From: Caldicellulosiruptor naganoensis
Lineage (GTDB): Bacteria; Bacillota; Thermoanaerobacteria; Caldicellulosiruptorales; Caldicellulosiruptoraceae
Direction: 5' to 3'
Assembly: GCF_026914285.1 (NCBI RefSeq)
Contig: NZ_CP113864.1
Span: 1,085,001 to 1,149,000 of the forward strand
Length of the DNA stretch: 64,000 nucleotides
The notes under the pieces were generated by a model, which worked only from the letters and a program-made list of their open reading frames with translations, was not told the origin of the DNA and did not search any database. A program made the position numbers and the translations under genes. Below are positions 1,677 to 47,132 of the stretch, piece after piece. The first letter of the stretch is position 1. Each line of letters opens with the position of its first letter.

Positions 1677-1679
1677 TGT

Positions 1680-3031: not shown

Positions 3032-3060
3032 AAAGTGAGAAAGTAAAATATTTTTAATAA

Positions 3061-3096
3061 GGCCATTCGATTGTAAGAATGGTCTTTTTATTTTTT
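3061..3096 (+). terminator. Intrinsic terminator after the SH3-like gene
   Basis: GGCCATTC (3061-3068) pairs with GAATGGTC (3077-3084) and is followed by TTTTTATTTTTT. It separates the upstream gene from aroK, whose own -10 box (TATAAT, 3116-3121) lies just downstream. Confidence 0.85.
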
Positions 3097-3174
3097 CAAT
3101 ATAAAGATTTTATGGTATAATAAATACAAACTTTCACACTATACGGCTTATTAAAAAAGGAAAGGTATATTAAA

Positions 3175-3693
3175 ATGAAGAACATTGTCCTAACAGGATT
3201 TATGGGAAGTGGCAAGACAACCATAGGGAGATTAATTGCAGAAAAATTGAAGATTGATCTTGTTGACACCGACTCTGAGATAATAAAAGAGTTTGGGCTG
3301 ACAATTGACCAGATATTCGAAATACATGGCGAGAAAAAATTTAGAGAATGCGAAAAAAGAGTTATTGAAAGAGTTTCAAAGCTTGAAAACGTTGTTATAT
3401 CAACAGGTGGAGGAGTTGTTTTGGATCCTGAAAATGTAAGACTTTTAAGAAAAAATGGAGTCATTTATTTTTTGTACGCATCTCCTGAAAGTATTCTAAA
3501 AAGGTTAAAAGATGATAACACAAGACCGCTTCTGAAAAATGGTGACAAACTTAGCAACATTATAAGACTTATGAACCTGAGAATGCCGTTTTATAAGAAC
3601 TGTGATTTTGAGATAAACACAGATATCTTAAGTCCTGATCTTGTAGCTGAGAAGATAATTTCAATCCATATGGCAAAGGAGAGTTGGAAATGA
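3175..3693 (+). CDS. aroK: Shikimate kinase
   Basis: 172 residues, the normal length for the family. Phosphorylates shikimate with ATP, step five of the chorismate pathway that feeds the trp operon downstream. The Walker A motif GFMGSGKTT is at residues 8-16, the D-x-D of the shikimate site is in LVDTDSEI (about 30-37), and GGG in STGGGVV (about 82) is the conserved substrate-binding loop. A good Shine-Dalgarno (AAAGGAAAGG) precedes the ATG. The stop overlaps the start of the next gene, so aroK, the AP-endonuclease-like gene and aroQ are translationally coupled. Confidence 0.95.
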   Translation: MKNIVLTGFMGSGKTTIGRLIAEKLKIDLVDTDSEIIKEFGLTIDQIFEIHGEKKFRECEKRVIERVSKLENVVISTGGGVVLDPENVRLLRKNGVIYFLYASPESILKRLKDDNTRPLLKNGDKLSNIIRLMNLRMPFYKNCDFEINTDILSPDLVAEKIISIHMAKESWK

Positions 3694-4562: not shown

Positions 4563-5005
4563 AAAAGATTTTGATTATAAATGGACCTAATCTTAACCTT
4601 TTGGGTGTTAGAGAGAAAAATATATATGGCACAACAACTTATAATGAACTATTAGAAATAATATCGAAAAAAGCGAGTGAACTCGGGTTAGATGTCCTTT
4701 TTTTTCAATCAAATCATGAAGGTGAAATAATAGATAGAATCCACAGAGCACTTGAGGAGAATATAGAAGGTATAATTATCAACCCAGGTGCCTACACTCA
4801 TTATAGTTATGCTATACACGATGCAATAAAGGCCGTCAACCTTCCAACCATTGAAGTTCATATTTCCAATATTCACGCAAGAGAAGAGTTCAGAAAAAGA
4901 AGTGTAATTGCACCCGCATGTATAGGGCAAATTTCAGGCTTTGGTATCAAGAGCTATATAATTGCACTGTATGCGCTAAAAGAGATTTTAAATCGAGACA
5001 ACTAA
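4559..5005 (+). CDS. aroQ: 3-dehydroquinate dehydratase, type II
   Basis: 148 residues. Dehydrates 3-dehydroquinate to 3-dehydroshikimate, step three of the shikimate pathway. The N-terminus IINGPNLNLLGVRE is the family signature, the catalytic Tyr is in NIYGTTTY, NPGAYTHYSYA (about 77-87) binds substrate, and EVHISNIHAREEFR holds the catalytic His region. The ATG overlaps the preceding TGA (ATGA at 4559), indicating coupling. Together with aroK it forms a small shikimate unit upstream of trp. Confidence 0.95.
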   Translation: MKKILIINGPNLNLLGVREKNIYGTTTYNELLEIISKKASELGLDVLFFQSNHEGEIIDRIHRALEENIEGIIINPGAYTHYSYAIHDAIKAVNLPTIEVHISNIHAREEFRKRSVIAPACIGQISGFGIKSYIIALYALKEILNRDN

Positions 5006-5028
5006 AATACAAAGGTGAGGGATATTAA

Positions 5029-6093
5029 GTGATTGATAACAGAATTGAAAAACTTTTCGATAAAGATGAAAAAATTGAGGCAGTATTTGTATCAAAAAAA
5101 GAGAATGTTAGATATCTTAGCAACTTCAAAGGGGATGAGAGTTTTTTACTACTTACAAGAAATGGGAAAAGATATCTTCTCACAGATTTCAGATATATAG
5201 AGCAAGCTAAAAAAGAAACGTGTGGATTTGAGATTATTGACTATAAAGGAAAGCTTTTTGAAACTGTTTTGGATATACTCTCTCAAAATCAGATAGACTC
5301 ACTTTATTTTGAGGGGTACAACCTCACCTATTCAACATTTTCTGAGATGAAAGAAAAAATAGGTGAAAAAATCTATCCTCTTTCCTTTAGCATTGATGAA
5401 ATAAGAGCTCTTAAAGATGAAGATGAAATTGAGCTTATAAAAAGAGCTGTTGAAATTACAGATAAAGCTTTTGAACATATTCTGAATTTTATAAAACCGG
5501 GTGTTACAGAAAACGAAATTGTTGCAGAGCTTAACTATTTTATATTAAAAAATGGTGCAAAAGGGTTTTCATTTGAGCCCATTGTTGCATCTGGAAAGAG
5601 AAGTTCACTCCCACACGGTACAGCTACAAATAAAAAGATAGAATATAGGGATGCAGTGATAATAGATTTTGGTTGCATATATGACGGTTACATGTCAGAT
5701 ATGACAAGAACAATATTTGTTGGTAGTCCTGATGATACTATGATTCGCATATACAATATTGTAAAAGAAGCACAGCAAAAAGCAGAAGAATTTATAACTG
5801 AGGGACTCAAATGCCTTGAGGTAGATAAAATTGCTCGAGATTATATAGGATGTTTTGGCTACATGGAAAGGTTTGGGCACTCATTGGGACATGGAGTTGG
5901 CCTTGAGATACATGAGCTTCCAAGGCTTTCGCCAAAGTCAGAGACAATTTTAGAAGAAAATATGATTGTAACAGTTGAGCCAGGCATTTATATTGAAGAC
6001 TTGGGTGGTGTGAGAATAGAAGATATGGTAGTTGTAAAGAAAGACGGGTGTAAGGTTTTGACAAGCTCTACAAAAGAGTTGATAATTCTCTAA
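5029..6093 (+). CDS. Xaa-Pro aminopeptidase / M24 family peptidase
   Basis: 354 residues, the usual size for bacterial PepQ/PepP-like M24 peptidases that remove residues next to proline using two metal ions. The N-terminal creatinase-like domain (about 1-125) precedes the pita-bread domain. Metal ligands are visible: D in IIDFGC and D in YMSDMTRT, H in GHSLGHGVGLEIHE, E in VTVEPGIYI and E in GVRIEDM. The start is GTG 5029 with GAGGG about 7 nt upstream. It closes the aro cluster and is followed by the trp promoter. Confidence 0.92.
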   Translation: MIDNRIEKLFDKDEKIEAVFVSKKENVRYLSNFKGDESFLLLTRNGKRYLLTDFRYIEQAKKETCGFEIIDYKGKLFETVLDILSQNQIDSLYFEGYNLTYSTFSEMKEKIGEKIYPLSFSIDEIRALKDEDEIELIKRAVEITDKAFEHILNFIKPGVTENEIVAELNYFILKNGAKGFSFEPIVASGKRSSLPHGTATNKKIEYRDAVIIDFGCIYDGYMSDMTRTIFVGSPDDTMIRIYNIVKEAQQKAEEFITEGLKCLEVDKIARDYIGCFGYMERFGHSLGHGVGLEIHELPRLSPKSETILEENMIVTVEPGIYIEDLGGVRIEDMVVVKKDGCKVLTSSTKELIIL

Positions 6094-6125
6094 GTTACAA
6101 TTTTTCGATTTTCCAGAGTTTCCCA

Positions 6126-6154
6126 TTGCAAGATTTTAGATTTTTTGATATACT
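6126..6154 (+). promoter_or_regulatory. Predicted trp operon promoter
   Basis: TTGCAA (6126-6131), a 17-bp spacer and TATACT (6149-6154). Transcription would start near 6161, giving a leader of about 120 nt before trpE that contains the triplet array. Confidence 0.6.
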
Positions 6155-6244
6155 GAAATTAACTGGAGTTAGGTGAGAAAGATCTTATAGATAAAGTATA
6201 AAATTACACAAGGAATAGAAAAAGCAGAGTTTTTAAATTAAGAT

Positions 6245-6287
6245 GAGACGAGACGAGATGAGAATAGAAGAGAGGAGAGGAGATGAG
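6245..6287 (+). promoter_or_regulatory. TRAP (MtrB) binding site: nine (G/T)AG triplets at 5-nt spacing
   Basis: GAG or TAG occurs at 6245, 6250, 6255, 6260, 6265 (TAG), 6270, 6275, 6280 and 6285, each separated by exactly two bases. AAG at 6240 could be a tenth. TRAP of Bacillus is known to wrap RNA carrying 9-11 such triplets when loaded with tryptophan. The array also contains the trpE Shine-Dalgarno (GGAG at 6274-6277) and overlaps its ATG at 6283, so binding would also block translation. The mtrB gene is not in this window. Confidence 0.88.
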
Positions 6288-6342
6288 CTACAAGATGAAG
6301 AAGGCGGCATACGTGCGCCCCGATAGCTCATCGGGGCTTTTT
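6282..6342 (+). terminator. trp attenuator: intrinsic terminator and competing antiterminator
   Basis: Terminator: GCCCCGAT (6317-6324) pairs with ATCGGGGC (6330-6337) over a 5-nt loop, followed by TTTTT (6338-6342). Antiterminator: GATGAGCTA (6282-6290) is a perfect 9-bp complement of TAGCTCATC (6324-6332), which overlaps the terminator loop and 3' arm. The antiterminator 5' arm contains the last GAG triplet, so bound TRAP would free the terminator. The hairpin lies inside the trpE reading frame. Confidence 0.85.
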
Positions 6343-7662
6343 CGTTATCAAGGTGCAGTTTATAATATTCCTTTCTTTGAGGAATATTCCAACAATTCAA
6401 TAGACATATCTCATATTGATTTTGAGTCAATAAAAGAAGATTACTTTTACTTCGAAAGTTCTCAAATAGTAGCATTCTGTTATGATATTCTTTTGTCCAT
6501 TAAGGTGTTTGGAAACAGAATTGAATTTGAAGATAGTTCTACTAAAATAATTGAGTACAAAGAAGTTTTAGAAAAGACCAATAACATCTTAATGCATCTT
6601 ATTGAAAAGAATGCCTTCATTACAACACGGTTTAATTACCATGCCATAAATTTAATAGAAGATATTTACTCTACTGATGAGCCATATATCGTATTCACTG
6701 TATACAAAAAGAATTTTTTGGTTGACAAAATCTCAGGGATTAGCAAAGTAGTTATTCCTAAAGGGCTTGAATTCAAAGGCAAAGACTTTGTCAAATTTAA
6801 TAAAAATACCAAAAAAGTAACAAGTAGAGTTTTGTACAACACACCAAAAGATTACTACATCAGCATAGTCAAACAAGCAAAAGAGGATATAAGAAATGGA
6901 GAAATTTTTCAGATTGTACTGTCTCAAGTGATAAAGATAAAAAGCGATATTTCAACAAACCAGCTCTTTTACAAAATGAAAGAAAAGAATCCGTCTGAGT
7001 ATTCTATTGTAATAAATACCAAAGATGAGCAGATTGTTTGTTTTTCACCAGAGACGCTGATTAAAAAGGAGAAAAACATTGTAAAGACATTTCCTATTGC
7101 TGGCACATACAGAATCAATGATGGTGATGATGTTGGACAAAAGAAGATAGAAATATTAAAAGACAAGAAAGAAATCAGTGAACACGTCATGCTTGTAGAT
7201 CTGGCCAGAAATGATTTGGGAAGAATCTCAAAGGCCGGCACGGTAAAGGTAGAAGAGTATCTACAAATAAAAAAGCTTTATAACCTCATACACATCTACT
7301 CAGTTGTCACAGGTGAGCTGGAAGAGAAAAATCTTATAAAAGCAATACTTTCAGTGTTTCCGGCAGGAACACTTACAGGTGCACCAAAGGTAAGAGCTAT
7401 GCAACTTATAGAAAAATATGAAAGTCAAAGACGGGGACTTTATGGGGGAGCAATAGGTTATATTTATAAAGACTCCCTTGACTTGGCAATTGCAATCAGA
7501 ATGGCCATAAAAGACAAAAAAGAAAATACTTTCCTTCTTCAGAGCGGAGCTGGAATTGTTAATCTTTCTATTCCTGAGAATGAATATCAAGAGTGTTTAA
7601 CGAAGCTGAGAGCCTTTTTGAAAATTATGGAGGTGGATGAGAATGATATTGTTAATAGATAA
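6283..7662 (+). CDS. trpE: Anthranilate synthase component I
   Basis: 459 residues. Converts chorismate plus ammonia (from TrpG) to anthranilate. The C-terminal chorismate-binding core is complete: IFQIVLSQV, SYE-like NPSEYSIV, PIAGTYR, DLARNDLGR, FPAGTLTGAPKVRAMQ and LQSGAGIV. The N-terminal regulatory half is short and divergent; the usual Trp-binding segment with PVS is not obvious. The first 20 codons include the attenuator hairpin (RPDSSSGLF). ATG 6283 has AGGAG 5 nt upstream; ATG 6295 in the same frame is the alternative. No start codon with a plausible site lies downstream of the hairpin. First gene of trpEGDCFBA. Confidence 0.93.
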   Translation: MSYKMKKAAYVRPDSSSGLFRYQGAVYNIPFFEEYSNNSIDISHIDFESIKEDYFYFESSQIVAFCYDILLSIKVFGNRIEFEDSSTKIIEYKEVLEKTNNILMHLIEKNAFITTRFNYHAINLIEDIYSTDEPYIVFTVYKKNFLVDKISGISKVVIPKGLEFKGKDFVKFNKNTKKVTSRVLYNTPKDYYISIVKQAKEDIRNGEIFQIVLSQVIKIKSDISTNQLFYKMKEKNPSEYSIVINTKDEQIVCFSPETLIKKEKNIVKTFPIAGTYRINDGDDVGQKKIEILKDKKEISEHVMLVDLARNDLGRISKAGTVKVEEYLQIKKLYNLIHIYSVVTGELEEKNLIKAILSVFPAGTLTGAPKVRAMQLIEKYESQRRGLYGGAIGYIYKDSLDLAIAIRMAIKDKKENTFLLQSGAGIVNLSIPENEYQECLTKLRAFLKIMEVDENDIVNR

Positions 7663-8254
7663 CTACGATTCATTTACATTCAATATTTATCAGATGATTG
7701 CAAGCAAAACTCAGGTAGTAGTTTTTAGAAACGACAAGGTTACAATTGACACCATACAAAAACTAAGCCCTGCAGGAATAATAATCTCACCTGGGCCAGG
7801 AAGTCCCAAAGATGCAGGTATTTCATCAGAGGTAGTAAAGAAGTTCGCGGGGGTAGTCCCAATATTGGGGGTATGTTTGGGACATCAGGTGATAGGCGAA
7901 TGTTTTGGAGCAAGAGTTGTGCATGCAAAATCTATATACCATGGAATGAGGTCTCGAGTAGACTTATTAGAAGCAGGTAAAAGAAGTCCACTTTACAAAG
8001 GTGTGCCAGACAGGTTCTTTGCAGGCAGATACCATTCTTTGGTTGTAGAAAAGACAGCATCATTGCAGGGACTCAAAATAGCCGCAGTAAGTGAAGATGA
8101 CGAGGTTATGTCAATTTTAAATGATGAGCTAAAAATATATGGAATTCAATTTCACCCTGAATCAATATTGACACCTGATGGGGAAAAGATATTACAGAAC
8201 TTTTTAGATTTGTGTTATGGGCAGGTGAAAGAAGATGCTCAAAGAGGCGCTTGA
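7643..8254 (+). CDS. trpG: Anthranilate synthase component II (glutamine amidotransferase)
   Basis: 203 residues. Class I glutamine amidotransferase delivering ammonia to TrpE. Visible: [13 protein letters not shown] at the N-terminus, the oxyanion segment SPGPGSP, the nucleophile elbow GVCLGHQ with catalytic Cys, and the His-Glu pair in IQFHPES. ATG 7643 is preferred over ATG 7637 because GGAGG (7629-7633) then sits 9 nt upstream. It overlaps the end of trpE by 20 nt. Confidence 0.95.
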
Positions 8255-9245
8255 GGTTATAACAGCAAAAAAAGATTTGGATTATGTCCAAGTAAAAAGA
8301 CTTTTGGAAAGCATACTTGATGGCGAGCTTGATGAGATAAAGTTTGGAGCTTTTTTGGCAGCACTCAAAACAAAGGGGGAAACAAAAGAAGAAATTTCTG
8401 CTTTTGTCGACGCATTTTATGAAAAGGCTCAAAAGATTGAATATAGTCACCCAAAAACCATAGACACATGCGGCACTGGTGGAGATGGCAAAGGTACATT
8501 CAATATTTCAACTGCAAGTGCGATAGTTCTTAGCTGCTTTGATTTAAAGGTTGCAAAACATGGTAACAGAAGTATTACGAGCAACTCTGGCTCTGCAGAC
8601 ATCTTAGAGAATTTGGGAATAGATATTCAGGCATCAGCTCAAAAGATTTTAGAAGGCTTAGAAAGGCTTAATTTTGCATTTTTATTTGCACCCGTGTACC
8701 ATCCAGCAATAAAAAAGGTAGCAAATGTGAGAAAGTCGCTTGGTATAAGAACAGTTTTTAACATCTTAGGTCCGCTTTTGAACCCTGTAAGTTTGAACTA
8801 TCAAGTTGTTGGTGCTTTTGATTGTGAAGCACAGGAAAAGATAGCTTCTGTTTTGAAAGGAAGAAGAAAAAGAGCGGCCGTTGTCCACAGCCTTGATGGG
8901 CTTGATGAAATTTCGGTTTCACAAAAAACAAGAGTTTTAGAGTTGCAAGGTGATAATGTCAAAGAATACTACATAGACCCAAAAGAGTATGGTATAGAGT
9001 ACACACTTGATGATATTAAAGGATATACCCCGCAAGAGAATGCAAAAATTCTGATGAGTATTTTAAATGGCGAGGTTTCTGCTTATTATTGGGCAGTTGT
9101 TCTAAATTCTGCTTTTGCTCTTTATATTGCCGAGGTTGCAAATGATATTGAAGAAGGTATTGCTTTGTGCCAAAGTGCAATAAAAAAAGGTGATGCTATG
9201 TTAAAGCTTAAAGATTTGCAACAACACTATAAAGTGGGGGCTTAA
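8235..9245 (+). CDS. trpD: Anthranilate phosphoribosyltransferase
   Basis: 336 residues, the family length. Transfers phosphoribose from PRPP to anthranilate. The PRPP-binding motif [16 protein letters not shown] (about 75-90), [15 protein letters not shown] and the anthranilate-side [20 protein letters not shown] are all intact. Starts 20 nt inside trpG, indicating translational coupling. Confidence 0.96.
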
Positions 9246-9249
9246 AAAA

Positions 9250-10032
9250 GTGAGTGTACTTGAAAAGATATTAGATGTCAAGAAGAAAGAAGTCGAAAAG
9301 TGCAAACAATTAGTTCCAGTTACAAAAATGAAAAAATTAGCTATTGAAAAGTGCACTTCTACATCTTGCGAAAACAAGTTCAAGGAGATCTTTAAAAAAG
9401 AGAATTTTTGTATCATTGGTGAAATAAAGCGTGCATCTCCATCTGAAGGCATAATTTCTGAAAATGTTGATGTCAAAGAAATCGCAAAGCTTTATGAGAG
9501 CTTAGGGTTCTTTGCAATATCTGTGCTGACAGAAAAGAACTTTTTCAAGGGAACTGAACAGGACTTGATGGATGTCAAAAGTGCTACTTCTCTCCCTGTT
9601 TTGAGGAAGGATTTCATCATCGACATATGGCAACTGTACCAGACAAAAATAATCGGTGCAGATGCTGCTTTACTTATCACAAAAGCCTTGAGTGAGAAGC
9701 AGCTCAGCATTTTTATAAAGGTGTTAGAGATTCTTGACATTGTTCCTCTTGTTGAAGTTGAAAACGAATATGAGATTGAAAAAGCTTTAAATTGCGGGGC
9801 TAAATTGATAGGGATTAATAACAGAAATTTGGATGATTTAACAATTGACCTTAAAAAAACAGAAAGACTTTTGAAATATATTCCAAAAGATGTAGCAGTT
9901 ATAAGCGAAAGTGGGATAAAATCAAGAGAAGACTTTGAGTATATCCGTTCTTTGGGTGTGGATGGCTGTCTTATAGGAACATCCTTTATGAAGACTCAAA
10001 ATCCTGTTGAGATAATTGGTGAGAGAATATGA
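9250..10032 (+). CDS. trpC: Indole-3-glycerol phosphate synthase
   Basis: 260 residues. Ring-closing decarboxylation of CdRP to indole-3-glycerol phosphate on a TIM barrel. Catalytic Lys in GEIKRASPSEG, PVLRKDFI and the phosphate-binding loops IGINNRNLDDL and ISESGIKS are visible. GTG start four bases after the trpD stop. Confidence 0.95.
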   Translation: MSVLEKILDVKKKEVEKCKQLVPVTKMKKLAIEKCTSTSCENKFKEIFKKENFCIIGEIKRASPSEGIISENVDVKEIAKLYESLGFFAISVLTEKNFFKGTEQDLMDVKSATSLPVLRKDFIIDIWQLYQTKIIGADAALLITKALSEKQLSIFIKVLEILDIVPLVEVENEYEIEKALNCGAKLIGINNRNLDDLTIDLKKTERLLKYIPKDVAVISESGIKSREDFEYIRSLGVDGCLIGTSFMKTQNPVEIIGERI

Positions 10033-10643
10033 TAGTGAAGTTTTGCGGCATAAGAAGAGAAGAAGATGTTGAGTACTGCAACATCTTAAGTCCAACTATG
10101 ATAGGTTTGATCTTTGCCGACAGTCCAAGGAAAGTTGAAAAAGACACTGCAAAGAGACTGCTGGCTATGAAAAATCCTTCTATAAAATCGGTTGGAGTTT
10201 TCAAGAACCAAACTCTCAGCGAAGTCTTAAGTATAAGTAAAGATTTAAAACTTGACTTTATACAACTACATGGCAATGAAAGTATCGAGTTTATCACATA
10301 CTTAAAAAGCCAAGGTTTCAAGATTATTAAAGCAGTCGAGGTAGAGAAGGTAAATGACATTGAAAGATCAAAAATTTATAAGGACATAGTAGACTTTATC
10401 CTTCTTGACAGACCAAAGGGGAAGGAGATAGATATAGTTCAGCTTGCAAAAAATGCCGATTTTGATTTTATCGTTGCAGGTGGAATTACACCCGAAAATA
10501 TTGAAAAATATCTTGCGCTCAATCCTCTTGGGATTGATATCAGTTCAGGGATAGAGACAAATGGATTTAAGGATTTTAACAAAATGAAAACTATCATAGA
10601 AAAATTAACAAAATACAAGGTTGGTGAAGTTAAAAATGGATAA
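10029..10643 (+). CDS. trpF: Phosphoribosylanthranilate isomerase
   Basis: 204 residues. Amadori isomerisation of PRA to CdRP. Contains the catalytic Cys in [15 protein letters not shown], the LHGNE strand, a catalytic Asp in FILLDRPKG and the phosphate loops [10 protein letters not shown] and [10 protein letters not shown]. The ATG overlaps the trpC stop by 4 nt. Separate from trpC, not fused as in enteric bacteria. Confidence 0.95.
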
Positions 10644-11811
10644 GTATTTTGGCAGATTTGGTGGTATGTATGCGCCAGAAACATTGATGCCAGCTCTTTT
10701 AGAAATAGAAAAAGAGTTTGTGAGACTAATCGAAGATGAAAATTTTAAATCTGAATATGAGTTTTATCTCAAAAACTATGTTGGAAGACCATCTCCACTC
10801 TACTTTGCAAAGAATCTGAGTAAACACCTTGGTGTCAAGATATACCTAAAAAGAGAAGATCTAAACCACACAGGTGCTCATAAGATAAACAACTGTATAG
10901 GCCAGGCACTTTTAGCAAAGCACATGGGCAAAAAAAGACTCATTGCTGAAACAGGTGCAGGTCAACACGGTGTTGCAACAGCTACCGTCGCAGCTCTTTT
11001 TGACATGGAATGTGAGATATTCATGGGCGAAGAGGATGCAAAAAGACAGTATCATAATGTGCAGAGAATGAAGATGCTTGGTAGCAGTGTGAGGGTTGTT
11101 GACAAAGGTAGCAAAACGCTAAAAGATGCTATAAACGAAGCAATGCGTGACTGGAGTGAGACATATGATTACACTTTTTATCTTTTTGGTACCGCTGCAG
11201 GCCCACATCCTTTTCCAAGGATAGTAAGATATTTTCAAAGTGTTATTGGCAATGAAACAAAAAAGCAAATTTTAGAGCAAGAGGGAAGACTACCTGACTA
11301 TGTTTTTGCATGTGTGGGTGGTGGGTCAAACGCAATTGGTATTTTTTCAGCCTTTTTAGATGAGCCTGAGGTAAAGCTGATAGGTGTTGAAGGTGCAGGT
11401 GAAGGTGTGAATACTGGGAAGACTGCTGCAACACTTTGCAGCGGCTCTGTGGGCATACTTCATGGTGCAAAGACTTATGTGTTGCAGGATGAAGATGGTC
11501 AGATTTTAAACACACATTCAATATCAGCAGGTCTCGACTATCCAGGGGTTGGGCCTGAGCATGCTTATTTGAAAGAGATAGGAAGAGTTGAGTATGTGGG
11601 GATAGAAGATGAAAAGGCAGTAGAGGCATTTTTGCTTTTGTGTAAGCTGGAAGGGATTATCCCCGCTTTAGAGAGCTCTCATGCCATTGCAGAGGTTGTA
11701 AAAAGGGCAAGAAATGGTATGTTCAAAAAAGACGATGTGGTTGTTATAAATCTTTCTGGAAGAGGAGATAAGGATATTTCTACTATTTTGCAATTTTGGA
11801 GGGAAGATTAA
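10636..11811 (+). CDS. trpB: Tryptophan synthase beta chain
   Basis: 391 residues. PLP-dependent condensation of indole and serine. [13 protein letters not shown] at the start, the PLP Lys in TGAHKINN (about 88), [14 protein letters not shown], the phosphate loop [10 protein letters not shown] and [10 protein letters not shown] are conserved. ATG 10636 with GGTGAAG upstream is chosen over TTG 10621. It overlaps the trpF stop by 8 nt. Confidence 0.96.
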
Positions 11812-11813
11812 AG

Positions 11814-12575
11814 GTGAATTTGATTGATAAGAAATTTGAGGATCTAAAATCGAAGGGGAAAAAGGCATTTATTGGTTATACAACATTTGGCTATCCATCT
11901 AAGGAGGAAACTCTTGATTATATAAAGCTTATCTATTCTTATGTAGATATTTTGGAACTCGGCTTTCCATTTTCTGACCCTGTTGCAGATGGTGAGGTTA
12001 TTCAAAGAGCGTCTGTTAAAGCCTTGAAAGAAGGTGTGAAATTAGATCATCTTTTTTACAGCATAGAAAAGTTCAAAAAGGACAAACCTGTTGCTATAAT
12101 GCTTTATGCAAACACAGTTTACAAAAGGGGAATTGAAAAGTTTTTCAAAGATTGCAAAGACTTTGGCGCAGATGCAGTGATTATACCTGATGTTTCGTAT
12201 GAAGAAAGTGCTGAGTTTAAGGATGCTTGCAGGGAAAATGGAGTGCATTATATTGACCTTGTATCTATAAGCTCAATTGAAAGAGCAAAAATGATTGCAA
12301 GAACTTCAAAAGGGTTTGTTTACTGTGTTACAAGAAAAGGTGTTACAGGCTTTAAAGGCGAAATTGACAAAAGCATTTATGAACTATTAAGTGAACTAAA
12401 AAAAGTTACTTCAACACCCCTGGCAGTAGGATTTGGAATCAAGAGCAAAGAAGATGTGCTGAGGTTTAAAGAGGTAGCAGACGGCATTGTTATCGGAAGT
12501 GCTATTATAAATAAGATTGATGAGGGAAAGGAAGATTTAGCAAGTTTCTTAGAAGCAATTAGAAGTGTCTTATAG
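11814..12575 (+). CDS. trpA: Tryptophan synthase alpha chain
   Basis: 253 residues. Cleaves indole-3-glycerol phosphate and channels indole to TrpB. The catalytic Glu lies in LELGFPFSDPVADG and the catalytic Asp in VIIPDVSYEE; VTGFKG and VGFGIKS bind phosphate. The GTG at 11814 follows the trpB stop by 2 nt with GGAGGG 10 nt upstream; TTG 11796 or 11823 are less likely starts. Last gene of the operon. Confidence 0.93.
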   Translation: MNLIDKKFEDLKSKGKKAFIGYTTFGYPSKEETLDYIKLIYSYVDILELGFPFSDPVADGEVIQRASVKALKEGVKLDHLFYSIEKFKKDKPVAIMLYANTVYKRGIEKFFKDCKDFGADAVIIPDVSYEESAEFKDACRENGVHYIDLVSISSIERAKMIARTSKGFVYCVTRKGVTGFKGEIDKSIYELLSELKKVTSTPLAVGFGIKSKEDVLRFKEVADGIVIGSAIINKIDEGKEDLASFLEAIRSVL

Positions 12576-12590
12576 AAAACAAAAACAATA

Positions 12591-12635
12591 GGGCTCCATA
12601 TCAATTTTTTTGGCTGTTGATATGAAGCCCTTTTT
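12591..12635. terminator. Bidirectional terminator between trpA and argF
   Basis: GGGCTCCATATCAA (12591-12604) pairs with TTGATATGAAGCCC (12617-12630), with one internal mismatch zone, followed by TTTTT for the plus strand. On the minus strand the same hairpin is followed by a weaker T-rich run, serving the convergent argF. Confidence 0.85.
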
Positions 12636-12644
12636 AGAATTATT

Positions 12645-13571
12645 TCATATTCTCCCTAAACACACAAACACCATAATAGCCTTATGTGCATGGAGCCTGT
12701 TTTCGGCCTCATCAAAAACTTTGGATTGAGGACCGTCAATAACCTCAGGAGTAACTTCAAAACCTCTATAAGCGGGAAGACAGTGCAAGAATATTGCATC
12801 CTCTTTTGCAAGTTTCATTAGCTCTTGAGTTACCTGGTAACCTTCAAAATCTTTTATCCTCTTTTCTTTTTCCTCTTCTTGCCCCATCGAAACCCACGTG
12901 TCTGTGTAGACAACATCTGCATCTTTTACAGCCTCTCTTGGATTGTCGGTAAATATAAGATTGCTACCACTTCTCTTTGCCTCATCTTTAGCAAAGTCAA
13001 CAACTTCTTTTTTTATTTCATATCCTTTTGGTGTTGCCACTGCTATATCAAGTCCAAGTTTACTTGCACCTACCAAAAGTGTTGCTGCAACATTATTTCC
13101 ATCGCCAACATAGGCAATTTTCAAATCTTTTAGTCTTCCTTTTTCCTCAAAGATTGTCTGAAAATCAGCTATTATCTGAGTTGGGTGATAGTCATCTGTA
13201 AGACCATTTATAACAGGGATTGAAGAATACTTTGCAAATTCTTCAACCTCACTTTGAGCATATGTTCGAATTACAATCAAATCAAGATACCTTGACAAAA
13301 CCTTTGCAGTGTCTTCTATTGTCTCACCACGACCAAGCTGCAAATCATTTTTACTAAGATAGAGCGAGTATCCACCCAGCTGATTGATTCCCACCTCAAA
13401 TGATACCCTTGTTCGTGTAGAAGCCTTAGTAAAAATCAAACCTAATGTCTTGTGTTTAAGGTAAGGAAAGAAAAAGCCTCTTTTTACTTCACTTTTTAGC
13501 CTACAAGCAAGGTCAACCAAGTACAATATCTCATCTTTTGTCAATTCATTTAAGGAAAGAAAATGTCTCAT
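12645..13571 (-). CDS. argF: Ornithine carbamoyltransferase
   Basis: 308 residues. Makes citrulline from ornithine and carbamoyl phosphate. The carbamoyl-phosphate site [11 protein letters not shown] (about 52-62), HPTQIIADF, the ornithine loop [11 protein letters not shown] and [11 protein letters not shown] are intact. It overlaps the carB end by 26 nt. Grouping with carAB links carbamoyl phosphate supply to arginine synthesis. Confidence 0.95.
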
Positions 13572-39162: not shown

Positions 39163-39222
39163 ATTAAAATATATAATTGCGATGCCGGAGTGGCGGAACT
39201 GGCAGACGCACAGGACTTAAAA
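39163..39222 (+). repeat. attL: promoter -10 and 5' half of tRNA-Leu(TAA)
   Basis: Sixty bases identical to 47022-47081. It covers TAAAAT, the start of the tRNA (GCCGGAG at 39184) and the gene up to the anticodon loop (CTTAAAA), where identity stops. A TTGACA at 39142-39147, 17 bp before TAAAAT, makes a complete promoter, so this truncated tRNA half is still likely transcribed, now into the element. Confidence 0.93.
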
Positions 39223-39353: not shown

Positions 39354-39400
39354 AACCACCAAACACCGAAAGAATAAAAGTAGGTGTGAGGTGGTTTTTA
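39354..39400 (+). promoter_or_regulatory. Hairpin sequestering the integrase ribosome binding site
   Basis: AACCACC (39354-39360) pairs with GGTGGTT (39390-39396) and ACACC (39363-39367) with GGTGT (39383-39387), with a 2x2 internal loop. The 3' arm contains GAGGTG, the Shine-Dalgarno of the integrase, and runs into TTTTTATT. It could act as a terminator for read-through from the tRNA promoter, as a translation block, or both. Confidence 0.6.
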
Positions 39401-39402
39401 TT

Positions 39403-40362
39403 ATGCCTAAACAACTCAAAGTCAACAATTCAAATTCAGATTGGGAAGACGCATTACAGCTTTTCTTATCTTACAAAAAAGCACAAGGTAGAAGTGATTT
39501 AACGATTAGGGACTATGAACGTCACATCAGTTCATTTTTTAGACGTTACCCAGATTGCTTTAATGACACAGAGAAGTTAAGAAAGTGTTTGATTGAGTAT
39601 TTATCGCAACCAATGAAACCAGTGACTTACAATCTGAGAATGAAAAACTTAAAAGCCTTTTTAAATTGGTGTGTTGAAGAAGGGATTATTCCGTCAAATC
39701 CCATTGCTAAATTCAAGCCAAGAAAGACAGATGACAGAATTGTTGAAATTGACATTGAAACACTTCAAAAGCTACTCCAGTTACCAGATAGAAAGACATT
39801 TGCTGGTTTACGTGATTATGCATTGATGTTATTGACACTTGACACAGGAATAAGACCTAAAGAAGCCTTTTCATTGCTAAAAGACCATTTTGATTTTAAG
39901 AATTTGCAGGTTGTAATTCCTTCAGATGTAGCAAAGACAAGAGTATCAAGAGTGCTGCCAATCTCACCAGTAACAGCAAACGCAATAAAAAAACTCATCT
40001 CTTCAAGACATCCCCAATGGGATGACAGCGTTCCTGTATTTTGTTCAGTATCAGGAAAGCCTTTAAACAGGTATAGATGGAATGAAAGAATGAGAGAGTA
40101 TAGTAAACAATTAGGTGTGAAAATAAGACCATATGATTTAAGGCATATGTTTGCTTTGCTGTATCTCAAAAATGGTGGTTATGAATTGAGTTTGCAAAAG
40201 ATAATGGGACATACAACATTGGAAATGACAAAAAAGTACGTCCACTTTACCCAGAAAGACCTACAAGAAATTCATGCAAAGGCAACACCGATTAACACTT
40301 TGCTAAAACAACCCTTAAACAGGGTTGGGAATATAAAAAATCAAAATAAAAAGAAAGAGTGA
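39403..40362 (+). CDS. Tyrosine recombinase / integrase
   Basis: 319 residues. N-terminal SAM-like core-binding domain (about 20-100, LQLFLSYKKAQGRSDLTIRD) and a catalytic domain: first Arg in TLDTGIRPKEAF, Lys region in TRVSRVLPIS, second box RPYDLRHMFALLYLKNGG, GH in IMGHTTLEMT and nucleophile Tyr in KKYVHF. The usual first His of HxxR is Tyr here, a tolerated change. ATG 39403 with GAGGTG about 10 nt upstream. It sits next to attL and is the likely integration/excision enzyme. Confidence 0.93.
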   Translation: MPKQLKVNNSNSDWEDALQLFLSYKKAQGRSDLTIRDYERHISSFFRRYPDCFNDTEKLRKCLIEYLSQPMKPVTYNLRMKNLKAFLNWCVEEGIIPSNPIAKFKPRKTDDRIVEIDIETLQKLLQLPDRKTFAGLRDYALMLLTLDTGIRPKEAFSLLKDHFDFKNLQVVIPSDVAKTRVSRVLPISPVTANAIKKLISSRHPQWDDSVPVFCSVSGKPLNRYRWNERMREYSKQLGVKIRPYDLRHMFALLYLKNGGYELSLQKIMGHTTLEMTKKYVHFTQKDLQEIHAKATPINTLLKQPLNRVGNIKNQNKKKE

Positions 40363-41095: not shown

Positions 41096-41308
41096 ATGAC
41101 AAAATTAGAATATTTGAAAAAACAGCATAATTTATCATCAGCTAAACTATCTTTGGCAGCTGGTATTAATTACACCTTGTTGACTTCAATTGAGAGAGGG
41201 GAAAGAAAAGCTTATCCAAAAATTAAAAGGAGATTAGCCGAATTTTTCAATGTGGCAGAAGATGACTTGTTTAATGAAGATGGGTCGTTGAAAGAGATTG
41301 AGGATTAA
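41096..41308 (+). CDS. XRE/Cro-type helix-turn-helix protein 1
   Basis: 70 residues, one HTH domain (LSSAKLSLAAGINYTLLTSI, about 14-33) and the tail NEDGSLKEIED. Likely repressor or activator of element functions. It is a paralogue of the next gene: both have ERGxRKxYPK in the recognition region and end in a xPDG/NEDG-S/TLK motif. Confidence 0.88.
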   Translation: MTKLEYLKKQHNLSSAKLSLAAGINYTLLTSIERGERKAYPKIKRRLAEFFNVAEDDLFNEDGSLKEIED

Positions 41309-41435: not shown

Positions 41436-41598
41436 ATGATTGTAAGGTGAGTATAAAAGTGGGAAATTATTAACAACTATGAGTTCTTTTGCTACACTAT
41501 ATTTAGGTTGAAGTAATTTTTAAAGAACAAGATATTGATGTTGCCCATTACTTTGAATATATTAAGTAGTGATAAAAAAAAAAGAAGGAGTGATATTT

Positions 41599-41820
41599 AT
41601 GACAGTTTTAGAAAAAATTAGAAAAGACAAGGGATTATCTCAAAGCAAGTTAGGACTTGCAATCGGTGTAAATCCTAACCTAATTTCACAAATCGAAAGG
41701 GGTTGGCGAAAACCTTATCCAAAATTATTGCAGTCTCTGGCAACGTTTTTGGGTGTGTCCATAGAAGAAATTGCAAATCCAGATGGCACACTAAAGGTGG
41801 TGGACAGCAAAACGGCATAA
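41599..41820 (+). CDS. XRE/Cro-type helix-turn-helix protein 2
   Basis: 73 residues. HTH domain KGLSQSKLGLAIGVNPNLIS (about 11-30), ERGWRKPYPK, then NPDGTLKVVDSKTA. ATG 41599 with AAGGAG 8 nt upstream is chosen over a GTG 30 nt earlier. With gene 1 it probably forms the control switch of the element. Confidence 0.88.
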   Translation: MTVLEKIRKDKGLSQSKLGLAIGVNPNLISQIERGWRKPYPKLLQSLATFLGVSIEEIANPDGTLKVVDSKTA

Positions 41821-41963: not shown

Positions 41964-42290
41964 ATGTTAATGAAAGTTTACAACAAATTTTTGCAACGCG
42001 AGGTTGTAGCTGGTGATTATAATTCCAGCGAAAAAGTCTTTTACAAAGAAGTTTTTACACGCAGCAAGTTACTTGTCCTAAATGCGTATGGAATTGAAAA
42101 GTGCGTTGTTGAAAAACTCAAGGAAAGAGGTTGTAAGCTAATACGGATTGAGGAGGTAGATACAGGAAATATCTTTGAAATTGACTTTGACAAGTTTATC
42201 GAAAAAGCTATTTTGCGTACATTTGGCAATTCCACGGAACAGTATTATTTGCCGCTAAAATACTTTACAAAGGTTGAAAAGGCTTCTTAA
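41964..42290 (+). CDS. Element protein of unknown function (108 aa)
   Basis: 108 residues, mixed alpha/beta, one Cys, no membrane segment. AAAGGGGG lies about 10 nt before ATG 41964; ATG 41970 is also possible. It ends just before a hairpin ahead of the primase gene. No family is recognised. Confidence 0.65.
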   Translation: MLMKVYNKFLQREVVAGDYNSSEKVFYKEVFTRSKLLVLNAYGIEKCVVEKLKERGCKLIRIEEVDTGNIFEIDFDKFIEKAILRTFGNSTEQYYLPLKYFTKVEKAS

Positions 42291-42298
42291 AATCCTTC

Positions 42299-42328
42299 GC
42301 TGCCCTATTCGGTTACCGGTAGGGCGGC
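42299..42328 (+). promoter_or_regulatory. Long hairpin ahead of the primase-helicase gene
   Basis: GCTGCCCTA (42299-42307) pairs with TAGGGCGGC (42320-42328); an inner CGG-TTA-CCG extends the stem. No T-run follows, so it is not a simple terminator. It could be an RNA control element or a single-strand initiation structure. Confidence 0.5.
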
Positions 42329-42372
42329 TTAATTGGTCTAAAATCAGCAAAACAAAAAAGGGGGGGCACAAA

Positions 42373-44202
42373 GTGGAAGCTAAAGACATTGTAAAGGCAA
42401 TCAAAGAAAAAATTGATATTGTTGACTACATAGGACGGTTTTTGTTCTTACAAAAGGAAGGTAGCAGCTACAAGGCTATCTGTCCATTTCACCCAGATAA
42501 AAACCCATCGTTTTATATCAAGCCCAGCGAACAGTTTTTTCATTGCTTTGGCTGTGGCGTTGGCGGTGATGTCATCAAATTTGCCCAGCTTTACCATAAC
42601 ATATCCTTTGGGGAGGCAATTAAGATGTTAGCCGAGGAAATAGGTTTGCCTATTAGTGATAAGCAAGCAGAAAACTTTACGCAAGACCAAAAACTTTCTC
42701 ATGACCAAATTGTAGCATATGTCGAAATATGTTCACAATGTGCAAAACTAACAAACTATTTCGCTGATAGGGGAATTTCACCTACCCTAATTGAGAAGTA
42801 CAAGCTGGGATATGATGTTGAAAATAACGCAATTGTACTACCTATCTTCCAAGACGGGCAGATAATAAGCTATGTGCGTCGCAATCTTGATGATAACAAG
42901 CCACGTTATGAATTCCCTAAAGGACACAAAGCGATACCTTTCAATTTGGACATACTCAAAGACGACCTGCAAACTAACGTTTTTATCACTGAAGGAATTT
43001 TTGACGCATTAACAATTGAAGCAGCAATTGGACAGCCAGCAATCGCACTAAATGGCTGCGAAAATCAAAACGAGTTTGTACAAATCCTAAATCGTATTAA
43101 GCCAGAGAACAAGAAGTTTTTTATCCTGTTTGACAACGACGAGGCAGGCAGCAAAGCAGCAAAACAACTTTTTGATAAGATGAAAAAACAGTATGAAGTG
43201 GCTATTTGTAGATGGGAAGGTGCACCTTACAAAGACATCAACGAGTTTTGGCAAAACTCTCAAGACGAGTGTATAAAGTTTTTAAAATGGCAGCTTAAAG
43301 CGGCTTTTTATCCCTATGCACTCATTAATTTTGCTGCCCAGTATGTTGATTTTCTCAAGTCTGATAAATTCAAAGCTATTTCCACAGGATTTAAGCAATT
43401 AGACGATGTGTTAAATGGGGGTTTTGTACCAGGAAACCTGTATGTCTTTGGTGCAAAGCCCAGCGTTGGTAAAACAACGTTTTTGTTGCAACTTATAGAC
43501 AACTTCTTACAGCAAGGTTATGAGTGTGTCTTCCTATCTGCCGAAATGCCAAAAGAAGAGATTTTGACAAGGATTTTTTGCCGTGAATATGGGCTTAGAA
43601 AGGCAAACGTGAAAGTCCCTGCTTTTGACTTCTATCGCAAACTCAGGACAAGAACAGCAAGAGAAGAAGAAATGCAAGAGTACATGAATGTTGTCAGAGA
43701 TTACACCCAAAAATTTGCTTTCAAGCTGCATATTGTGGAAGAACAAAAGCTTGACGATGTACCTTATATTCTTGACCGATTACAAAAACCTATCTTGTTC
43801 ATTGATTACTTACAGCTTCTCCAACCAGCAAAACCATATCAAAGCGATAAGCAACGAGTTGACCTGATAATGCAAGAGTTGTTTGAAATTAAAAACAAGT
43901 TTTTACTCCCAGTTGTAGCTATCAGCAGCTTGAATAGGGAAAGCTATGACGACGATGATATAAAAGCTTTCAAAGAATCTGGTTCAATTGAATATGGAAC
44001 AGCAGCCGCTTTCCTAATGAAAAGAGATGACGACAAACCTATTCACGATGACTACAAAGGTAATGGTTATACAATCAAATTCAATTGTGTCAAAAACAGA
44101 TATGGCAGCATAGGGGATGACATAACAATGCGATTCTGGGGTGGCATATACCTATTCGAGGAGGTTGAAAACAGTGAGAGAAAACCAAGCTTTGACAAGT
44201 AA
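42373..44202 (+). CDS. Primase-helicase fusion (CHC2 zinc finger, TOPRIM, RecA/DnaB-type)
   Basis: 609 residues. Residues 37-61 are a CHC2 zinc finger (CPFH ... CFGC), about 200-260 a TOPRIM domain (ITEGIFDA, FDNDEAGS) that makes primers, and from about 345 a DnaB-like helicase: Walker A GAKPSVGKTTF (about 360), LSAEMPKEEI, Walker B PILFIDYLQLL (about 474) and the Gln-like sensor region VVAISSLNRES. The order matches phage T7 gp4/Twinkle-type primase-helicases. GTG 42373 after GGGGGG. It would let the element replicate on its own helicase. Confidence 0.93.
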   Translation: MEAKDIVKAIKEKIDIVDYIGRFLFLQKEGSSYKAICPFHPDKNPSFYIKPSEQFFHCFGCGVGGDVIKFAQLYHNISFGEAIKMLAEEIGLPISDKQAENFTQDQKLSHDQIVAYVEICSQCAKLTNYFADRGISPTLIEKYKLGYDVENNAIVLPIFQDGQIISYVRRNLDDNKPRYEFPKGHKAIPFNLDILKDDLQTNVFITEGIFDALTIEAAIGQPAIALNGCENQNEFVQILNRIKPENKKFFILFDNDEAGSKAAKQLFDKMKKQYEVAICRWEGAPYKDINEFWQNSQDECIKFLKWQLKAAFYPYALINFAAQYVDFLKSDKFKAISTGFKQLDDVLNGGFVPGNLYVFGAKPSVGKTTFLLQLIDNFLQQGYECVFLSAEMPKEEILTRIFCREYGLRKANVKVPAFDFYRKLRTRTAREEEMQEYMNVVRDYTQKFAFKLHIVEEQKLDDVPYILDRLQKPILFIDYLQLLQPAKPYQSDKQRVDLIMQELFEIKNKFLLPVVAISSLNRESYDDDDIKAFKESGSIEYGTAAAFLMKRDDDKPIHDDYKGNGYTIKFNCVKNRYGSIGDDITMRFWGGIYLFEEVENSERKPSFDK

Positions 44203-45091
44203 ATTCATAGCCGAAATTAACCTTGCCATCAACCCAATTGTACCCTTTAGGGGAACAGCAACATTACAAAATGGCAAAGTCTTTTGGGAAAGTAAAACCA
44301 GTGAAGGCGGTATCATAAAAGGCATGAGTACGCGTACCCTAACAGAATTTGACCGAGAAATTTACTTTGCTATCCTCACCTATAAGGTCGAGAATGGTAT
44401 TATCGACAACACTTTTGAAATTCCCTTGACCTACCTTTTGAAAAAGAAAGGACTTAAAGTTTGCAAAGCGAATAAACAGAAACTTTTTGAGACCCTTTAT
44501 ACCCTTTTCCAAACAGGAATCCAAAGAGAGGAGTTTTATCGTCCCAATGGAGAGAGGAAAAAAGAAAGCTTCTATTTGCTGACTTCTTTAAGTTACTGTT
44601 ACAAAATCCTCAAAGAAGACAAAGAAGAAGAACGCAAAATAGGAGAAAATGATAGCTGGCTGCCTACCCAAGAAGGGAAGTACGTCAAGAAGGTCAAAGT
44701 TAGCATTCCACCTTCTATCAATGAAAACATCAATTTGCGTTACCTAATTTTTGGCGATTATCGAGTAATTGAAAAAATCAACAAAAACCAAGTCGCAAAG
44801 CGAATTTACTACTACTGTTTAAGTCGTTGCCGCAAGAACAATACACACAAACGTAACAAGGCAGCATTCATAAATGACATAATCCCCGAAAAACCATTAG
44901 AACAAGCAAGACCTTTAGTCATGCAAGCTTTGTCCTTGCTACAACAGTTAGGAGTGATTAGCTACCACTTTGACCTAAAAGATAATATCATCCTGCAAAT
45001 AACCGAGAAAGCACAAAAACATCTGGATGTTATAAATATACAGCTTGAAAAGTATAATTATACAGTCACACAGCAAGAAAAGCGGGAGTAA
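44174..45091 (+). CDS. Probable replication initiator protein
   Basis: 305 residues, basic, all-soluble, with winged-helix-like segments (FDREIYFAILTYKVENG and ARPLVMQALSLLQQLGVISY). No enzymatic motif is visible. Three 23-bp iterons start within its last codons and its stop lies inside iteron 1, the typical layout of plasmid Rep genes that bind iterons. GTG 44174 has GGAGG 9 nt upstream and overlaps the primase-helicase by 29 nt. The exact Rep family is not identified. Confidence 0.7.
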   Translation: MRENQALTSKFIAEINLAINPIVPFRGTATLQNGKVFWESKTSEGGIIKGMSTRTLTEFDREIYFAILTYKVENGIIDNTFEIPLTYLLKKKGLKVCKANKQKLFETLYTLFQTGIQREEFYRPNGERKKESFYLLTSLSYCYKILKEDKEEERKIGENDSWLPTQEGKYVKKVKVSIPPSINENINLRYLIFGDYRVIEKINKNQVAKRIYYYCLSRCRKNNTHKRNKAAFINDIIPEKPLEQARPLVMQALSLLQQLGVISYHFDLKDNIILQITEKAQKHLDVINIQLEKYNYTVTQQEKRE

Positions 45092-45145
45092 TTACCTATG
45101 AAAAGCGGGAGTATTTACCTACGAAAAGCGGGAGTAATTACCTGA
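45077..45145 (+). repeat. Three 23-bp iterons, probable replication origin
   Basis: GAAAAGCGGGAGTAATTACC occurs at 45077, 45100 (one change, TATTTACC) and 45123, each 23 bp apart. Iteron 1 spans the stop codon of the initiator gene. An adjacent AT-rich stretch and a perfect hairpin at 45209 complete an origin-like region. Confidence 0.85.
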
Positions 45146-45208
45146 CTTTTAGGGGACGCAAACCCTTGAAAATTCTGAGTTTTTCCCTTTTAAACTTAAA
45201 CATAAATA

Positions 45209-45231
45209 GGGAAGGGGTAAACCCTTCCCTA
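45209..45231. other. Perfect hairpin beside the iterons
   Basis: AGGGAAGGG (45209-45217) pairs with CCCTTCCCT (45223-45231) over GTAAA. No T-run follows on the plus strand; it may be part of the origin or control the next gene. Confidence 0.6.
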
Positions 45232-45310
45232 ACTGAATGAATAAAAATTACACACATGCTTTTCCCCTGCTTGAATAAAGTTGCAAACGCAAAAGGTGGA
45301 GGTTGCTGGT

Positions 45311-46030
45311 ATGCGACCGTGGGAGTGGCTTGCCCTAATTGAAGAGTCCAAGAATGTTGCAAACAATGTTGGCGTTGCTGCTGGTTGTCCATTGGTTGCT
45401 ACTGTTATAATGGACAAGGCAGCTATAACGCTGGTTAACCAAGTTAACCCAGTAAAAGCAGCAAGTAAGCAAGTTAACCACACAATAAGGCTTATGACTG
45501 AACTTGAAATAAGGGAAGTTGTAACAAAACAAAAGCCTTCCTACTTTGCAAAGCTGAAAAAGAAGGCTTATGACAAGCAACTTTGCAGTAAGGAAGGGCA
45601 TTTCTGGGCTATGATGGAGAGACTATCACAGGAGTTTGGAAAGAAAACTCCCAGTGAAAATGATTTGCAGCTGTACACAAAATTTGCAAAGTGTGCACAG
45701 CGAGAATGGGAAATTGAAAAGCTACAAACTTCCCTAAAAGTCAAGTGTCCTGCATGTAACGGTATAGATTTTGAGTTTGCCGAAAAAAGGCAGCAAAAGG
45801 GGTTTGTTTGCTTACAGTGTTTGAAAACAACGGGTAGAGTTGAATTTGTGGTTGGCGTTAAAATCGAAAACGATGTGACAGAATGGGCAGAACGCATAAC
45901 ATTAGGAACAGGACACCTTGTCCCTAATAGCAAGTGTACACGCTGCGGTGCAAGTTTTAAATGGTTTAGCAGCGACAAATGGGAAGGCTGGCTTTGTAGT
46001 GGTTGTGGCGAGGAATTTATAACGTGCTAA
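45311..46030 (+). CDS. Double zinc-ribbon element protein, function unknown
   Basis: 239 residues. The N-terminal half is helical and hydrophobic in part (NVANNVGVAAGCPLVATVIM). The C-terminal half has two Cys4 sets: CPAC ... CLQC (about 149-175) and CTRCG ... CSGCG (about 211-235), two zinc ribbons. ATG 45311 with GGTGGAGG 8 nt upstream. As the last gene and next to the origin, it may act in replication, partition or as cargo. No family recognised. Confidence 0.7.
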   Translation: MRPWEWLALIEESKNVANNVGVAAGCPLVATVIMDKAAITLVNQVNPVKAASKQVNHTIRLMTELEIREVVTKQKPSYFAKLKKKAYDKQLCSKEGHFWAMMERLSQEFGKKTPSENDLQLYTKFAKCAQREWEIEKLQTSLKVKCPACNGIDFEFAEKRQQKGFVCLQCLKTTGRVEFVVGVKIENDVTEWAERITLGTGHLVPNSKCTRCGASFKWFSSDKWEGWLCSGCGEEFITC

Positions 46031-46091: not shown

Positions 46092-47021
46092 GTTCAAAAG
46101 AAACCGGTTTCAAAGGATTTTGTCTTAAAAAATTGCCTTTGAGATTAGAAGTATCAAGGAATAGAAGGCAATTTATTTCTAAACAAGCAATATCAAGACT
46201 TTTCAGGTTTTGTTGAAAAATGGTATTTGCAATATAGAGACTGAATTGTTTATGTTAAGGTGTGAAGGTTATAAAAAGCTGGCAAATTCTTGAAATAATT
46301 TACATAAGTTGACAGTTAAAATACTGGGCAGGGATAGTAAAAGACTGGATTGAATGAGGTTAACATAATGCAACGTTTTGCACAAAATGAGTAAACTTTA
46401 GTGGGGTATTGGGTTTACACATCCAAGCCTTGAGAGATGGCTAATTGAGAATGATTTTCAATTAGAAAAATAGGGTCAAACTGCGTTATTTTGTAACTGG
46501 TAATGAAGAAGATAGGGCAGTTTACAGAAAAGAAAATAAATTACAACAAAGATGATTATTAGCATTTGGAAAGCCAAAGCTATGGCATAGTAAGACAAAT
46601 AAGGTGACGTTGTAAATTTATGTTTGCACAAAATAGCATTTTTGTGCAATGTTAAAATATAGAATTGATTTCTGGCAGCAAGTGTAAGGAAAGTAAAGCC
46701 ATGAAGCAGCCAAAAGCAAGGTGTAGGGGCAAGAAATTGAAGAAGGTTCATTGTTGCGTGCTGCCTTTAGCCGATATTTTGAAGCATAAAATTAGATGTT
46801 ATGATATGCTGTTATGGCAACAGATAGCAATTAAACTCAAACAAATTTTCTCTATTGAGAATTCTTTACTTTGGGGTTAAACTGATAACGAACAAACCAT
46901 ACAGGATTTTTGAATGTTTTAATTTGAGAACACTTAAAAGTCCTGTTCGGTAAATGAGTTTTTTAAAGGTGTTTGGTGGTTTTTGCGAGTAAAAAAACTC
47001 TTGACAATGCTTGAAAACCCT
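46092..47021. other. Right-end noncoding region of the element
   Basis: About 930 bp without a supported gene. It holds three TTTGTGCAAAAT-like sites (46376-46388 inverted, 46623-46634 inverted, 46639-46650 direct; the last two form a near palindrome). It ends with TTGACA (47001-47006), which is the -35 of the restored tRNA promoter. Position next to attR suits integrase arm sites or excision control. Confidence 0.5.
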
Positions 47022-47029
47022 ATTAAAAT
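47001..47029 (+). promoter_or_regulatory. Element-supplied promoter of the tRNA-Leu(TAA) cluster
   Basis: TTGACA (47001-47006), 17-bp spacer, TAAAAT (47024-47029). The -35 and most of the spacer lie outside the 60-bp repeat, so they came with the element. It resembles the original promoter left at 39142-39170 but the spacer differs. Confidence 0.75.
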
Positions 47030-47081
47030 ATATAATTGCGATGCCGGAGTGGCGGAACTGGCAGACGCACAGGACTTAAAA
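47022..47081 (+). repeat. attR: identical 60-bp copy
   Basis: Identical to 39163-39222. It ends in the anticodon loop of the intact tRNA-Leu(TAA). Confidence 0.93.
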
Positions 47082-47132
47082 TCCTGGGACCTGAATAAGG
47101 TCGTACCGGTTCAAGTCCGGTTTCCGGCACCA
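47043..47132 (+). tRNA. tRNA-Leu (anticodon TAA), reconstituted at attR
   Basis: GCCGGAG (47043-47049) pairs with TTCCGGC (47122-47128), discriminator A, encoded CCA. The anticodon loop CTTAAAA gives TAA. The 5' half up to the loop comes from the element, the 3' half from the host chromosome. Confidence 0.95.

Follow-up and report, generated by a model that had tools for sequence, protein, structure and literature searches.

A small element integrated at a tRNA-Leu gene of Caldicellulosiruptor naganoensis very probably carries a complete iteron replication module, i.e., a Rep initiator, iterons, an AT-rich block, a primase-helicase and a hairpin, that is active in the excised circle. In the window, by which we mean the whole 64,000-nucleotide stretch of DNA analyzed, and in its comparison with other genomes, we observe at the level of sequence the borders of this element, its empty sites, the iteron array and its conservation, the hairpin, and the exchange of rep and origin as one cassette.

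The integrated element is 7,859 bp long and is bounded by perfect 60-bp direct repeats (39163-39222 and 47022-47081), with its genes in the order integrase, 63-aa ORF, XRE, XRE, 108-aa ORF, primase-helicase, Rep, origin and zinc-ribbon protein. Its main features are:

39163-39222, plus strand: attL, 60-bp direct repeat that covers the -10 end of the promoter and the 5′ half of tRNA-Leu UAA, identical to 47022-47081
39391-40362, plus strand: tyrosine integrase (PF00589, 7.9e-28)
41096-41308, plus strand: XRE/Cro-type regulator 1 (HTH_3)
41569-41820, plus strand: XRE/Cro-type regulator 2 (HTH_3, 1.4e-12), conserved in relatives
41964-42290, plus strand: small conserved ORF of 108 aa with no assigned function (42-82% identity, seven related elements)
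42274-44202, plus strand: primase-helicase fusion of CHC2 zinc finger, Toprim and DnaB_C (PF01807, 2e-31; PF13155, 1e-14; PF03796, 9e-31)
44174-45091, plus strand: Rep, replication initiator of 305 aa, predicted tandem winged helix (models match RctB and RepE54)
45311-46030, plus strand: conserved zinc-ribbon-like protein downstream of the origin (weak Zn-ribbon match; 65-79% identity within the genus)
47001-47029, plus strand: promoter (TTGACA-17-TAAAAT; promoter scan) now reading into the restored tRNA-Leu; its sequence differs from the promoter at attL
47022-47081, plus strand: attR, second 60-bp copy, identical to attL, where the intact tRNA-Leu (47043-47132) begins

With integrase, att repeats and empty sites all present, these features mark the element as a tRNA-site integrative element. 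The empty sites are found in three genomes of the same genus (G001, G003 and G009), where the tRNA-Leu genes that flank the element lie about 55 bp apart; the elements of G002 and G005 have the same 60-bp repeats at both ends, and two further elements inserted at this tRNA have an integrase 98-99% identical to that of the window. The integrase, primase-helicase and Rep of the window are all intact open frames, with the true start of the primase-helicase probably near 42376, and the 108-aa ORF is always directly upstream of the primase-helicase. Pfam, PHROGs and PADLOC scans of the ORFs recognized no packaging or interference genes, and the scan for defense genes returned primase and DNA-binding look-alikes only. 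The element also supplies its own promoter (47001-47029) for the tRNA-Leu gene, the original promoter and 5′ half having been displaced.

Examination of the region from the rep gene onward located the following parts of the putative origin:

44465-44512, plus strand: codons of the predicted WH1 recognition helix, residues 98-113 (secondary structure and column partition)
45031-45065, plus strand: pair of 13-mers, TATAAATATACAG and TATAATTATACAG, 22 bp apart, within the rep end (repeat search)
45077-45099, plus strand: iteron 1, holding the rep stop codon (repeat search, Tandem Repeats Finder)
45100-45122, plus strand: iteron 2 (repeat search, Tandem Repeats Finder)
45123-45145, plus strand: iteron 3 (repeat search, Tandem Repeats Finder)
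45157-45165, plus strand: conserved motif CGCAAACCC, between the iterons and the AT-rich block (comparison with relatives)
45169-45204, plus strand: AT-rich block, candidate unwinding element (78% A+T)
45207-45231, no strand assigned: hairpin with perfect 10-bp arms and a 5-nt loop (fold and covariation)

The first-pass annotation had described three 23-bp direct repeats starting in the last codons of rep, and this is what we find: three units at 45077-45145, with a period of exactly 23 bp and 91% identity to the first unit, which spans the stop codon as GAAAAGCGGGAG-TAA-TTACC. The array has the highest Tandem Repeats Finder score of the 64-kb window (120), and at a shift of 23 it matches itself at 41 of 44 positions, whereas 40 dinucleotide shuffles of the entire window reach 30 of 44 at most. 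Outside the array, the element has no further copy of the 20-mer iteron core at up to 5 mismatches, and a scan of the whole 2.49-Mb host genome (15 bases, 2 mismatches) gave two extra weak matches, both distant, with one for the reversed control. Pairs of GCATAAATATACG, likewise 22 bp apart, are present at the rep end of several same-genus relatives, which also have inverted TTATGCA copies past the hairpin.

The rep frame (44174-45091) opens with a GTG codon with GAGGAGG just before it, and its product is extended at the C terminus by about 25 residues, absent in the relatives, whose codons run into the first repeat. Searches of the window Rep against Pfam, PHROGs, NCBIfam and PDB sequences gave nothing convincing, and none of the eight Rep members matches the Rep_3 Pfam family. 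AlphaFold models of Rep, built from 8-9 sequences and of moderate confidence (pLDDT 68 and 74), both contain two winged-helix domains, so that the predicted fold of Rep is the tandem winged helix known from iteron initiators. Their best structural match is to domains 2-3 of RctB (Z 11.9 and 11.7); the better model also matches RepE54 (Z 8.4) and the iteron complex 1rep (Z 8.3 over 178 residues, rmsd 9.1). How the domains are placed probably explains this large rmsd; WH1 taken as a single domain superposes on 6h24 at 3.6-3.7 Å (Z 8.7-8.9).

Homologues of this Rep are present in five elements in four other genomes of the same genus and in two Thermoanaerobacter/Caldanaerobacter-type genomes, which belong to the same class as the host of the window; an extra copy of the latter type lies on a short MAG contig (L023). 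In samples taken across the phylum, full matches were confined to two genera, and one candidate, G409, was rejected as a chance match to a Crp-type regulator. Plasmid records, phage records and viral contigs gave no relatives and no free plasmid of the family, whose members are integrated wherever found. Tracing each related element except the L023 contig identified tRNA-derived direct repeats of 43-120 bp at spacings of 7.6-13.7 kb. We checked whether the repeats were absent from these elements, and in 7 of 7 the same gene is closely followed on its 3′ side by 3-4 iterons, at a period of exactly 23 bp. Next come a GGGTTTGCGG-type motif, then an AT-rich block and then a hairpin, and the primase-helicase is directly upstream of rep in every case. 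The overlap of array and gene end that had been reported holds for the window but is not a general trait, since the arrays of the relatives start roughly 40-55 bases past the rep stop codon.

Placed in register, the iterons of the window (TAYGAAAAGCGGGAGTAWTTACC) and of L015 (CCCGTAAAACTGTAGGAATTACC), L021 (TATCGAAAACCATAGTATATACC), L016 (TATAAAAAATCGCAGTATATACC) and L018 (TATAAAAAATCGTAGTATGTACC) share the skeleton AAAA-box-AG[TG]A-TACC, in which AAAA and AG.A..TACC are constant and the intervening 4-bp box is variable. The register of the bound unit is uncertain, because TACCTAYRAAAA, which spans the junction between units, varies little as well.

Individual members of the family vary around this plan. 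In Thermoanaerobacter thermocopriae (L024, 8238-10014) the primase-helicase gene is broken into three, with Rep and iterons intact, and G005 contains two family elements in one genome (L018 and L060), at tRNA-Trp and tRNA-Leu and with the boxes TCGT and CCAT; at 7946-11105 of L060, two apparent IS110-type transposases, judged from translations alone, have enlarged the element to 13.7 kb. A tandem arrangement of elements at tRNA-Arg is suggested for L064 (G010, 2477-12843) by a 120-bp repeat and by another related integrase, located 9.2 kb downstream. At L058 (G002, 743-8486), the tRNA-Leu site used in the window is occupied by an element of nearly equal size (7861 bp) whose integrase is 99% identical, and the entire replication module is replaced by a DnaB_N and AAA_25 protein; four 11-bp repeats TACGAAAAAAG at 6588-6632 of this locus may belong to another origin.

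Comparison of the window element with its same-genus relatives demonstrated that Rep stands apart from its neighbors: amino-acid identity is 69-86% for the primase-helicase, 65-79% for the zinc-ribbon protein and about 30% for Rep. At the nucleotide level, L016 and L019 match the window at 98-100% over 44000-44100, about 20-72% from about 44150 to 45300, and back to 76-98% over most of the sequence past 45300, so that the low-identity block coincides almost fully with the interval that the first-pass annotation had marked (44174-45231). The iterons of the window differ from those of the same-genus elements, and the segment after them (CGCAAACCC..CTGAGTTTTTC) resembles Thermoanaerobacter-type origins, unlike those of its own genus. 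These alignments show rep and origin as a single replaced block, at about 44180-45300. Rapid divergence in place of cassette exchange was rejected, with flanks 98-100% identical near the break; uniform fast divergence does not account for the low block, because the same-genus Reps, apart from that of the window, are 86-94% identical among themselves. Together with the array in seven relatives and the predicted tandem winged-helix Rep, this joint movement of rep and repeats supports the earlier proposal of a plasmid-type origin.

Among the five same-genus Reps, the iteron box is CCAT in L019 and L021 and TCGC or TCGT in L016, L018 and L020. Apart from artefacts at the alignment ends, four residues alone match this split, i.e., 94, 97, 99 and 102 in window numbering, and residue 98 is S when the box ends in C and Q when it ends in T. 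Residues 94-102 fall where the predicted WH1 recognition helix begins (98-113 in the window, 103-117 in L016), and overall similarity does not group the proteins by box (L021 is 91.3% identical to L016 and 89.8% to L019). Four such columns within 9 residues have a P of about 0.0003, with only two or three independent changes underneath, and since so few events underlie the clustering we treat a specificity code as a hypothesis. Both winged-helix domains of R6K pi touch the iteron (PMC4980987), and box-tracking residues in WH1 fit with this. It is possible, although we lean against it, that cassettes are exchanged and then retuned by a few residues at the WH1 helix start that read the 4-bp box, letting related elements coexist in one cell without cross-recognition; G005 has two such elements, with boxes TCGT and CCAT.

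The remaining parts of the origin are also shared with the relatives. The motif is on the opposite strand in the same-genus relatives (GGGTTTGCG), and the AT-rich block beside the iterons is present by composition, at only 78% A+T in the window against 81-92% in the relatives. The perfect hairpin that had been placed about 60 bp beyond the repeats lies at 45207-45231, 62 bp after the last repeat, with a folding z of about -4.8 to -5.2 equaled by 0 of 200 shuffles. In five same-genus relatives its 9-bp stem is paired in 45 of 45 cells and has three two-sided compensatory changes, a covariation score reached by 0 of 500 shuffles; because the stem is fully paired with two-sided changes, the hairpin appears to be maintained, as DNA or RNA, and kept under selection.

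We propose that the predicted Rep would bind the three 23-bp iterons at and just past the end of its own gene and thereby open the adjacent AT-rich block (about 45169-45204), where the element-encoded primase-helicase would load and start replication, in a circle excised by the integrase from the tRNA-Leu site. Since the window origin has no perfect DnaA box, with one-mismatch sites only (one perfect site is present in L018 among the relatives), the recruitment of the helicase is a guess. The hairpin would probably be a priming or polarity signal. Since the element has its own primase-helicase, a hypothetical priming role comparable to that of the RSF1010 stem-loops is attractive, RepB′ being the protein that primes at stem-loops in IncQ plasmids (PMC4234260).

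For this one part of the module, the chance that the hairpin is a transcription terminator only, outside the origin, is a little short of even. The terminator scan finds a terminator-like site on the minus strand only, the stem followed by TTTATGTTTA, and the minus strand of the relatives likewise leads into T-rich sequence past the stem; however, there is no T-run on the plus strand, the direction of rep and its neighbors, no conserved minus-strand gene that would need a terminator was recognized, and the fixed position beside the AT-rich block fits an IncQ-like priming site (PMC4234260). Decay of the whole origin, i.e., a plasmid that integrated long ago and lost replication, with the repeats as a remnant, is improbable: the integrated state of every member and a broken primase-helicase in the relative in G036 are what one would expect of it, but in the window the three key frames are intact, iterons, attL and attR are near perfect, and the covariation of the hairpin in the relatives implies selection. 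Very unlikely, in spite of two XRE regulators in the element and an array that overlaps a coding end between two genes, is that the repeats are operators through which Rep or an XRE protein controls transcription where the rep operon ends and onward into the zinc-ribbon gene, with no origin at all, since the promoter scan found no promoter-like site between array and downstream gene, the array changes along with rep and not with the better conserved second XRE gene, and an AT-rich block and hairpin follow the array in all same-genus relatives.

Read as an active replication module, the window element and its relatives form a thermophile replicon series in which initiator and origin are swapped as a block and for which one can name the few residues that track a DNA box. 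This makes it possible to test, with short DNA probes and point mutants, how replication specificity and incompatibility evolve. In addition, the compact origin with its primase-helicase might serve in vectors for thermophilic anaerobes; pBAS2, the native replicon of C. bescii vectors, resembles a rolling-circle plasmid (PMC3643907).

Several known systems resemble the module in part. As in the iteron plasmids (F/RepE, pPS10/RepA and R6K/pi, and RctB of Vibrio chromosome 2), direct repeats lie beside rep, the initiator is WH1-WH2 (here by prediction) and an AT-rich block is adjacent; unlike them, the window has its repeats 3′ of rep, its own primase-helicase and integration at a tRNA gene, its iteron unit is 23 bp compared with 17-22 in the examples of PMC4980987, and no sequence similarity of its Rep to RepE, RepA, pi or RctB was detected. 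Three iterons are also present in pSC101 and some IncQ plasmids (PMC4980987). IncQ RSF1010 shares iterons, a stem-loop, and an element-encoded helicase, primase and iteron-binding initiator, the last putative here (PMC4234260), but in the window helicase and primase are one protein, there is one hairpin in place of ssiA and ssiB, and a profile search detected no similarity to RepC in the element. With regard to PF10134 (RPA, replication initiator protein A), the Reps of L017 (23.0 bits) and L015 (20.9 bits) match below the gathering cutoff of 27, and the weakly related 568-aa Rep of L066 (G383, 2661-4524) passes it and is accompanied by about five 21-22-bp repeats that have TACCT..AAAA in common with the window iterons; the window Rep has no match, and the L066 repeats are upstream of the gene. 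Phage-inducible chromosomal islands (PICI/SaPI) share the integrase and att site, the order primase then rep, and the position of the origin directly 3′ of rep (PMC6092414). In PICIs the AT-rich region of the origin invariably has an iteron set on either side (PMC6092414), whereas the window has one set on one side, as do the relatives, with one array on the rep side, and its integrase and regulators are not divergent and no packaging or interference gene was recognized. The best reading of these sequences is that the array would work in the manner of iteron plasmids while occupying the position of a PICI origin. With binding and replication putative, we class the module as a new variant among iteron replicons, one that small tRNA-integrating elements carry and that has its iterons 3′ of rep.
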